A stretch of 33,302 bases of DNA, taken from Candidatus Petromonas tenebris (lineage in GTDB: Bacteria > Bacillota > Clostridia > Peptostreptococcales > Caminicellaceae). The stretch is taken from NCBI GenBank assembly GCA_014236755.1, contig JACCKY010000038.1:1-33302 (forward strand), written 5' to 3'. The notes under the pieces are model-generated. The model was given only the letters and a program-made list of their open reading frames with translations. It was not told the origin of the DNA and ran no database searches. A program made the translations under genes and the position numbers. Shown in pieces: positions 1 to 26,228 of the stretch. Within the stretch, counting starts at the first letter, position 1. Every line of letters begins with the position of its first letter.

Positions 1-107
1 TGTTTTTACCTCTAAATCTTTTTTATATAAAACAGCTCTTCTACGGAGCCAAAAGAGGATTATTGAAGGATATCTATAAGGAACTAGCGAGACGAGTTAA
101 ATTAATT
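1..107 (+). repeat. R1 long-hairpin repeat, copy A (cut by window edge)
   Basis: Right half of the dispersed repeat called R1 here. It carries the loop word CCTCTAAATCTTTT, then AACAGCTCTTCTACGGAGCC, AAAGAGGATTATTGAAGGAT and a GTTAA end. The left arm would lie before base 1. It is over 90 percent identical by eye to the right halves at 1131, 1660, 1910 and 26130. After it, 108-260 is AT-rich sequence in which I recognise no gene. Confidence 0.85.
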
Positions 108-4207: not shown

Positions 4208-4230
4208 TAAACCACCCCTTTAGAATAATA

Positions 4231-4250
4231 AAAGCGTCTGGCGACGCTTT
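4231..4250 (-). terminator. perfect hairpin between parB and phzF-like gene
   Basis: AAAGCGTC and GACGCTTT pair perfectly around TGGC. On the minus strand it is followed by TTATTATT and would serve as a weak terminator after parB. The core is the same palindrome found in the 36-bp block of R2 at 1105-1122 and 14828-14843, in opposite orientation. Confidence 0.5.
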
Positions 4251-4258
4251 CTTAGTTT

Positions 4259-4423
4259 TTGGCTCTTAATTAGTCCTTAGTTCTTAGTGCTTAGGAAATT
4301 CGTGGCATTATTTCGGGTTATAATTGTTGGCTTCTCGTAATTACCTACTCGCTACTCGGTTAAGGTTAGACTTTTCGGCATTTCTTAATTAGCCCATAGT
4401 TCTTGGTTCTTAGCAGTTAACTG
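4259..4423 (-). repeat. R2-related heptad repeat tract
   Basis: Degenerate 7-base words are in register: TTAGTCC, TTAGTTC, TTAGTGC, TTAGGAA at 4270-4297, and TTAGCCC, ATAGTTC, TTGGTTC, TTAGCAG, TTAACTG at 4389-4423. The reverse complement of TTAGTTC is GAACTAA, the unit seen at 14774-14825. About 90 bp of non-periodic sequence separates the two runs. No gene is seen from 4208 to 4503. Confidence 0.7.
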
Positions 4424-4487
4424 TCTCTCGGTATCTGTAACCTGTGACCTACTTCTATATACTGTTACTTTCAACTTCATTCTGTAT

Positions 4488-4503
4488 TGTTTCACGTAAA
4501 ACA
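4488..4503. promoter_or_regulatory. degenerate parS-like site abutting parB
   Basis: TGTTTCACGTAAAACA differs from perfect parS at one base (A for G at position 11). It ends immediately before the parB stop codon at 4504-4506. A match this close by chance is unlikely, but binding may be weakened because the central CACGTG is broken to CACGTA. Confidence 0.6.
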
Positions 4504-14564: not shown

Positions 14565-14636
14565 GAAATTTATGAAAATACATTGACATAATAAATGTAG
14601 TCATTCTAGTTAAAAATTACTTGTGCTTTTTTATTT

Positions 14637-14851
14637 CATAGGAACTCAAACATTTTTTGAAAAAAATTGCAGGTATAAAACAAAGTAAATTCAAGGGATG
14701 CAAGAAATTACAAACTTTTACCAGTTAAATATTAAAAAGGCTAACAGCTAACTGCACGACTAGGTTTTTCCAAGAGCCAAGAGCTAAGAACTAAGAGCTA
14801 ATCAGGGCTAACAACTACGAACTAACAAAGCGTCGCCAGACGCATTTGTTC
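14637..14851 (+). repeat. R2 dispersed repeat, copy 2, bordering oriC
   Basis: Conserved 119-bp block (14637-14755), variable tract (14756-14815), conserved 36-bp block (14816-14851). The variable tract has four consecutive heptads GAGCCAA, GAGCTAA, GAACTAA, GAGCTAA at 14774-14801, then after TCA three more: GGGCTAA at 14805-14811, CAACTAC, GAACTAA. Copy 1 at 946 has a shorter and different tract between the same blocks. No coding frame. Confidence 0.85.
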
Positions 14852-26025: not shown

Positions 26026-26040
26026 GTATTCGGTTAATAA

Positions 26041-26219
26041 GTTAACCTCTTGTGCTAGCTATTCTAACAGTATAGCTTTAAATATCCTTCAAAGTTTCCT
26101 CTGAAGCGACTTTGAAGAGATGTTTTTACCTCTAAATCTTTTCTATTAAAACAGCTCTTCTACGGAGCCAAAAGAGGATTATTGAAGGATATCTATAAGG
26201 AACTAGCGAGGCAAGTTAA
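26041..26219 (+). repeat. R1 long-hairpin repeat, copy E (full length)
   Basis: About 179 bp. The left arm from GTTAACCTCTTGTGCTAG to GAAGAGATGTTTTT is an imperfect inverted repeat of the right arm AAAACAGCTCTTC to GCAAGTTAA. Shared paired words are TTAAC, GCTAG, TATAG, ATATCCTTCAA, TCCTCT and GAAGAG. It lies between the convergent sigB and trpS genes, nine bases from the trpS stop codon. Confidence 0.87.
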
Positions 26220-26228
26220 GTTAAAAAT

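Follow-up and report, generated by a model that had tools for sequence, protein, structure and literature searches.

The window, that is, the whole stretch of 33,302 nucleotides analysed here, holds three intergenic sites with 7-base repeats, two of which are copies of one element. Copy 1 spans positions 944–1130 on the forward strand and comprises a left end, a short heptad tract and a right-end hairpin, with an internal deletion of 92 bp relative to the consensus. Directly 5' of it, at 909–943 on the same strand, a terminator-like hairpin (AGAGCAG...CTGCTCT) with a T-rich tail ending in TTTAT can be read directly. The heptads of copy 1 at 1047–1074 belong to module G (GCTAACA type), and the right-end hairpin AACAAA-GCGTC/GACGC-TTTGTT lies at 1103–1129, both on the forward strand. 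Copy 2 lies at 14635–14851, also on the forward strand, between the rpmH region and dnaA; its left end follows TTTTTTAT and leads into heptad modules G, D and E, with D and E at 14774–14825 and the right-end hairpin at 14824–14850. The two copies have in common a block of 102 bp with 96% identity (962–1063 and 14654–14755) and a block of 36 bp with 100% identity (1095–1130 and 14816–14851). The third site, on the reverse strand at 4231–4452 (the boundary near 4452 was judged by eye), is a heptad mosaic that lacks the left block and lies downstream of parB, in the direction of that gene. It ends in a hairpin of the right-end type at 4231–4250, its module D (CTAAGAA type) occupies 4270–4297 and a second heptad tract occupies 4389–4423; positions 4227–4257 are an inverted version of the terminal block with 90% complementarity. 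The conserved blocks that an earlier note on this DNA had described around the heptads are thus shared by two of the sites, and the 118-bp block is absent from the third. A second dispersed family, about 190 bp long, hairpin-rich and of the form AACAGCTCTTC...GAAGAGCTG, has several copies in the window (4–91, 1125–1212, 1565–1756, 1825–2016 and 26037–26228), and part of it lies directly 3' of element copy 1. Near parA and parB, TGTTTCACGTGAAACA (1763–1778) and TGTTTCACGTAAAACA (4488–4503) resemble parS sites.

The 7-base periodicity first noticed by eye is confirmed at all four tracts by the lag-7 identities, which are 15/21 at 1047–1074, 16/21 at 4270–4297, 17/28 at 4389–4423 and 28/45 at 14774–14825. 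Lag 7 was not visible in overall lag-by-lag identity or in runs of at least 12 matches, and a window statistic was adopted in place of these measures. Lag 7 gave the top 21-base window among lags 4–14 in the three intergenic regions, scoring 16 against 13 for the next lag, 17 against 13 and 18 against 17, and its score was reached by 6, 0 and 2 of 2000 first-order shuffles. The window statistic was applied to the genome from which the window comes (hereafter the host genome, G000; 2,941,394 bases, or 2.94 Mb, in 120 contigs), using 20 stretches of 20 kb picked blind to heptads. The sample contained 17 lag-7 clusters in 60,660 intergenic bases, none in 318,528 coding bases and none over five shuffles, so that autocorrelation at 7 is stronger than in shuffled DNA. 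Each of the other lags from 4 to 20 gave 0–2 clusters, except lag 14, a harmonic, which gave eight. A CTAAG-heptad pattern matched the host genome 218 times against 11 in the control, adjacent registers of a single array being scored separately.

The left block recurs well beyond the window. Its 39-base core is found 53 times in the host genome with up to three mismatches, against none for the reversed-pattern control, and 46 of the 53 copies were retrieved for analysis. The three intergenic sites of the earlier note are therefore a single-window view of something genome-wide: the blocks and heptads it described are real, and it missed that together they make up a single dispersed element, one that has fixed ends, inserts in a preferred context and conserves a hairpin at its right end. 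A full copy is about 280 bp long and consists of a conserved left end, heptad modules and the right-end hairpin. It has no genes of its own and occupies dozens of sites, mostly just 3' of genes. The left end starts with TGCATAGG, TGTCTAGG or AGTAAAGG and continues with AACTCAAACATTTTTT or near variants, and about 100 conserved bases follow this start before the heptad modules begin. The modules are, in turn, G (GCTAACA type), A (GGTGACG type), the spacer P, GACCC(A/T)AAAGA..GACC, Q, GGATTTGCCAAG, D (CTAAGAA type) and E (CTACGAA type). The element closes with an interrupted hairpin, AACAAA-GCGTC-loop-GACGC-TTTGTTC.

Module order was read from 22 chains in the unselected host sample and the window. 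Because the left-end and G-module patterns often match reversed DNA (9 against 12 for the left end and 6 against 14 for G), only chains of at least two modules were used. The order is largely fixed: the left end comes first in all 40 of its pairings with other modules, P and Q precede D (7:0 and 8:0), and D precedes E (8:0) and the right end (10:0). Exceptions occur with modules G, A and C, which stand before D in ratios of 5:1, 4:1 and 3:1, respectively. Mosaics without the left block carry additional heptad types (CCCAGTG, GAGTAGC and GAGTTAA), and of the 14 places at which such mosaics were read, several occupy the gap from a gene's stop codon to the start of the gene that follows.

The two ends are conserved in different ways. 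In the right-end stem both sides have changed in four of five pairs, and 89.3% of cells are paired over 28 variants against at most 54.3% in slid controls, with the qualification that the variants were picked by hand, which favours pairing somewhat, mainly from 219 matches of which most are chance or reverse-strand duplicates. The left end is conserved in sequence; single left-half copies do fold, although their 26-row alignment gives no consensus structure (0 kcal by RNAalifold), and TGCAA-GAAA-TTGCA can be read in several left ends of a related metagenome-derived genome (MAG). Terminal inverted repeats are absent, TGCATAGG... and ...TTTGTTC not being complementary.

The left end could be placed in 39 of the 46 retrieved copies. 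It is directly preceded by the pentanucleotide TTTAT in 21 of the 39, by ATTTT in seven and by something else in 11, so TTTAT is absent from 18. The 45 bases before the left end fold at −8 kcal/mol or below in 26 of these 39 copies; among control positions the share is 16.2% for the 1646 that are T-rich and 12.3% for the 2770 that are intergenic. The strong preceding hairpin is absent in the other 13. The upstream gene runs in the direction of the element in 37 of the 44 copies for which one was called, among the 46. In the unselected sample and the window both neighbours are co-directional in 14 of 22 chains; in these the element always shares their direction, whether the chain has a left end (five) or not (nine). 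Both ends were called in 35 copies, a set in which about ten right-end calls are false, and empty sites were found for two of them; a loose right-end pattern had given 42 calls, about ten of them false and on shortened copies, and filtering left 31. Copy L024 sits inside a member of the second dispersed family, and the uninterrupted member L215 gives the exact junction, the search having returned 39 match pairs in total from overlapping loci. Copy L029 interrupts a truncated reading frame of a group II intron, in the 3' portion of that frame, and its empty site is L198, with one base uncertain (a further match, L213, is less clean). Target duplication could be assessed for these two of the 35 copies only, and to within one base neither shows it.

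A scan with 19 bases of the left end over one genome per species returned 18 stretches; judged by reading, the element is present in eight of them, and the other ten match by chance. The eight come from Maledivibacter halophilus M1 (two), the Clostridia MAG PL23a_bin.55 (five) and Thermohalobacter berrensis CTT3 (one). A search with a Thermohalobacter copy found 41 matches in the MAG, and in Thermohalobacter itself four that are strong; with a MAG copy as query, all five genomes of the family that were searched gave matches with E ≤0.001, the three in G003 being weak and reading as decayed or heptad-only pieces. One host-genome copy found no match among plasmids and phages in a distant-mode search, and two exact patterns found none among viral contigs. 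The relatives keep the same ends and carry other heptads. The units ACTTGGA and ACTTGCA occur both in the MAG and in Maledivibacter; further copies in the MAG have CTACTAA and CCACGAA, and Thermohalobacter has CTAAGAG. In Thermohalobacter, a neighbouring element in L257 (around 1440–1525) has a different left half, TGTCTAGAAAAGTATATTTCTATGAATTGC, and the same kind of right end, CTAACAAATCGACAAAGTAGATTTTGTTC. Two genera also have heptads in what is apparently a corresponding flagellar intergenic position (545–585 of L311, in G003:C10, and around 1530 of L188, in G000:C58), the units being of TTAGTAG type in one and of GGTGACG and CTAAGAA types in the other.

The lengths of the tracts change in steps of one unit. 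In the MAG, the distance from a fixed spacer to the right-end hairpin is 18, 25, 32, 39, 46, 53 or 67 bases, and all 15 copies in which both flanking blocks were found, out of at least 43 matches in that genome, fall in one length class modulo 7, with two to nine heptads. The MAG copies are interrelated, so their common length class may partly reflect descent despite the seven different lengths. Two Maledivibacter copies have two and three heptads, and four other sequences (L094, L049, L058 and L201) complete the 21 rows of this comparison. In the host genome, 35 indel events relative to the consensus were counted over the 31 copies with a true right end, ten of which have none. Sixteen events measure exactly 7 or 14 bases; the remaining 19 comprise four of 38 bases, ten single deletions in the range 44–108 bases, and another five events with sizes of 1, 1, 10, 13 and 27 bases. 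Since the 7- and 14-base indels all fall at about three positions shared by descent, the independent events number fewer than 16. Substitutions in the heptad half amount to 103 transitions and 37 transversions. The 7-base steps lend support to the slippage proposed in the earlier note, and together with the different heptads between the same ends in other genera they bear out its view that the tract evolves faster than its frame. Its suggestion of a protein that recognises heptads is not supported, given that unit sequence varies by genus and that nearly heptad-less copies retain both ends: L178, L137 and copy 1 of the window have lost most of their heptads and kept both. Such changes between genera and the almost total loss that is possible make the heptads look like a passenger, and from these comparisons of sequence we infer that the tract is probably carried along and is not a binding array.

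Taken together, these observations are best read as a short, non-autonomous mobile DNA element with slipping heptads that has probably multiplied here and in related Clostridia. How it would have moved is less certain. IS200/IS605 elements carry subterminal palindromes at both ends, and their derivatives include the group A IStrons and the PATEs. Insertion in this family is described (PMC4227781) as following a T-rich 5' pentanucleotide such as TTTAT without 3' specificity, with neither target duplication nor terminal inverted repeats. The present element resembles it in its T-rich 5' target, in the absence of target duplication and of terminal inverted repeats, and in having a right-end hairpin; this combination suggests by analogy a single-strand, Y1-type route in trans, to which we give close to, if slightly under, an even chance. 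In this scheme a transposase of the IS200/IS605 type (Y1, HUH), supplied in trans, would move the element in single-stranded form. The target would be the T-rich tail of terminators, and landing there would place the element after genes with little damage; the heptads would turn over through slippage, or through units pairing with one another, as the strand is copied. Such a route would explain the one-way orientation behind T-tails. The differences from IS200/IS605 are that the element has neither a transposase nor a partner found for it and no consensus palindrome at the left end, that it contains heptad arrays and that it is strongly linked to terminator-like tails. Also against this reading stand the mosaics without the left block, which are sense-oriented as well, and the left flanks that lack TTTAT (18 of 39) or a strong hairpin (13 of 39).

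No transposase reading frame is present in any copy read. The host genome has only two Y1_Tnp matches, both RAYT-like in their length; the flanks of one carry a different repeat, and the other gene starts at a contig end, with one side unseen. The Y1 genes are not supported as the mobiliser: none of the 16 whose flanks were read (in five genomes, and for part of their Y1 genes) has the ends of this element, and when the element was compared with 19 Y1 loci by BLAST the best E was 0.045. Most of the 16 genes have a repeat of their own in their flanks, of GGGACGGTTC, GGGACGTTTC and CAGGCTTGAA types. The RAYT-like genes at 2799–3830 of L170 (G000:C13), in L161 and in L316–L324 are mostly framed by their own repeats, and repeats of TTCAAGCCTGACCCC, GGGACGGTTC and GGGACGTTTC types stand on one or both sides of such genes in several genomes.

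Several other accounts have to be weighed, and as they overlap with the mobile-element reading, the probabilities we attach to them do not sum to one. The nearest is a special case of the single-strand route, in which the host would have a single-copy Y1 transposase that acts on the element in the way RAYTs mobilise REPs. The RAYT family uses the same single-strand chemistry (Y1), and Y1_Tnp frames of about 210–320 residues exist in the host genome (two), in G001, G002 and G004 and in Thermohalobacter; the element shares with REPs that it is short, dispersed and has a hairpin. It differs in size, at about 280 bp against the 20–40 bp of REPs, and the RAYT-like genes here have other repeats or none seen in their flanks, which makes this account unlikely. 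Somewhat less likely again is simple-sequence slippage alone, in which easily slipping 7-base units arise and drift between genes, and nothing is to be read into the shared blocks. According to PMC4679880 and PMC4692102, which cite a 2007 survey, no class of repeat is more abundant than heptads in most of the genomes surveyed, and lag-7 clusters abound in a distant genome of the order, G033. Yet slippage alone leaves unexplained the dispersed copies with fixed ends, the empty sites, the module order and the compensatory changes in the right-end hairpin, and as a full account it is already contradicted. For the change in tract length it is the likeliest explanation, and to that extent it overlaps with the reading as a mobile element.

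Two further accounts were weighed. A terminator-targeting reverse transcriptase of group II (IIC-like) intron machinery might insert copies of an element RNA. Intron domains are seen at three places in the host genome, and group IIC introns typically insert behind terminators in sense orientation, as most copies here do. The element itself has no Rfam match, either over the window at gathering scores or over eight loci at E ≤1, its left end differs from the GUGYG start of group II introns, and the sole intron seen adjoining a copy is the one that hosts L029, so that we regard this account as improbable. Still more improbable is a regulatory RNA or protein-binding array in which the heptads are selected regulator sites after genes. 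The sense orientation of the element relative to genes would suit it, and a regulatory hypothesis has a precedent in the TAACTGA repeats (PMC4679880); against it stand the unit sequence that varies between genera, the copies that persist with nearly all heptads deleted and the left half without consensus structure. A MITE of a DDE transposase, of the kind represented by BOX, was rejected on the two empty sites without target duplication and the absence of terminal inverted repeats. The mobile element with slipping heptads remains the preferred reading.

Among known repeats, BOX of Streptococcus pneumoniae is similar in that it is dispersed and has two end modules around variable tandem units in the middle, and differs in its terminal inverted repeats and target duplications (PMC3049150). 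The TAACTGA repeats of marine Beggiatoaceae likewise form many intergenic heptad sets, in the genome described mostly oriented with genes; they have one nearly invariant unit and lie mostly just before start codons, and flanking blocks or element ends are not described for them in the accessible text (PMC4679880). The heptameric simple sequence repeats GGGNATC of Xanthomonas and GGGGAYT of Nostoc are intergenic, of period seven and variable in length, and the excerpted account describes no fixed ends, module order or insertion site (PMC4692102). The heptad tract of the element, with its tandem 7-base units in varying copy number, qualifies as such a repeat. The boxB unit of BOX, for its part, is far longer than 7 bases. 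Layout, insertion mode and heptad tract thus each resemble known systems, and their combination appears new: in the open-licence papers we found no report that joins a BOX-like layout with IS200/IS605-like insertion and a heptad tract, none that unites RAYT, REP and Firmicutes, and none with the exact right-end string. Heptads are known as abundant bacterial repeats for which polymerase slippage has been proposed and of whose spread little has been said. If the preferred reading is right, one class of them can now be assigned to a mobile element whose ends are mapped, whose insertion context is described and whose unit steps can be counted, and this turns the mobiliser and the seven-base unit into testable questions, with Maledivibacter halophilus and Thermohalobacter berrensis as named relatives in which they can be pursued. 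It also adds a BOX-like modular repeat found mostly behind terminator-like tails.

Period seven recurs beyond these relatives with different sequences, but patchily. At one mismatch the CTAA-heptad pattern matches 42 of 118 genomes, and its reversed control matches many too. G033, from another family of the same order, has 54 lag-7 clusters in 113 kb (one of them masked bases), in a sample for which nine of ten contigs had been selected for heptad matches; the clusters give 21 consensus unit strings, several of them one change apart, and other lags that are not multiples of 7 give one to five clusters. By contrast, G002, G004, G005 and G039 show 0 to 2 lag-7 clusters per 100 kb, not above other lags, and G113, with 73 CTAA-pattern matches against none in the control, has three, of which one is masked bases, in a sample of 200 kb drawn from the starts of contigs, again not above other lags. 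The contact length of the polymerase has been suggested as a reason for heptads (PMC4679880 and PMC4692102). A bolder and doubtful extension is that heptad arrays across the order, in their many unrelated sequences, are the footprint of a single copying process that advances by a fixed 7-base step on the single strands of hairpin-ended elements. Were this so, the step size would belong to the enzyme and not to the sequence, and mobile elements would give rise to new heptad families, which would go on to fill the DNA between genes. A link between arrays and nearby perfect hairpins was considered and dropped for want of a consistent association: in G033 such hairpins accompany 28 of 53 arrays and 37% of controls, whereas in the host genome they accompany 1 of 17 arrays and 13% of controls. 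The arrays of G033 (L295–L300 and L327–L336) are of many unit types, and some of them lie beside AGAAATTTTGC...GCAAAATTTCTTCC hairpins.
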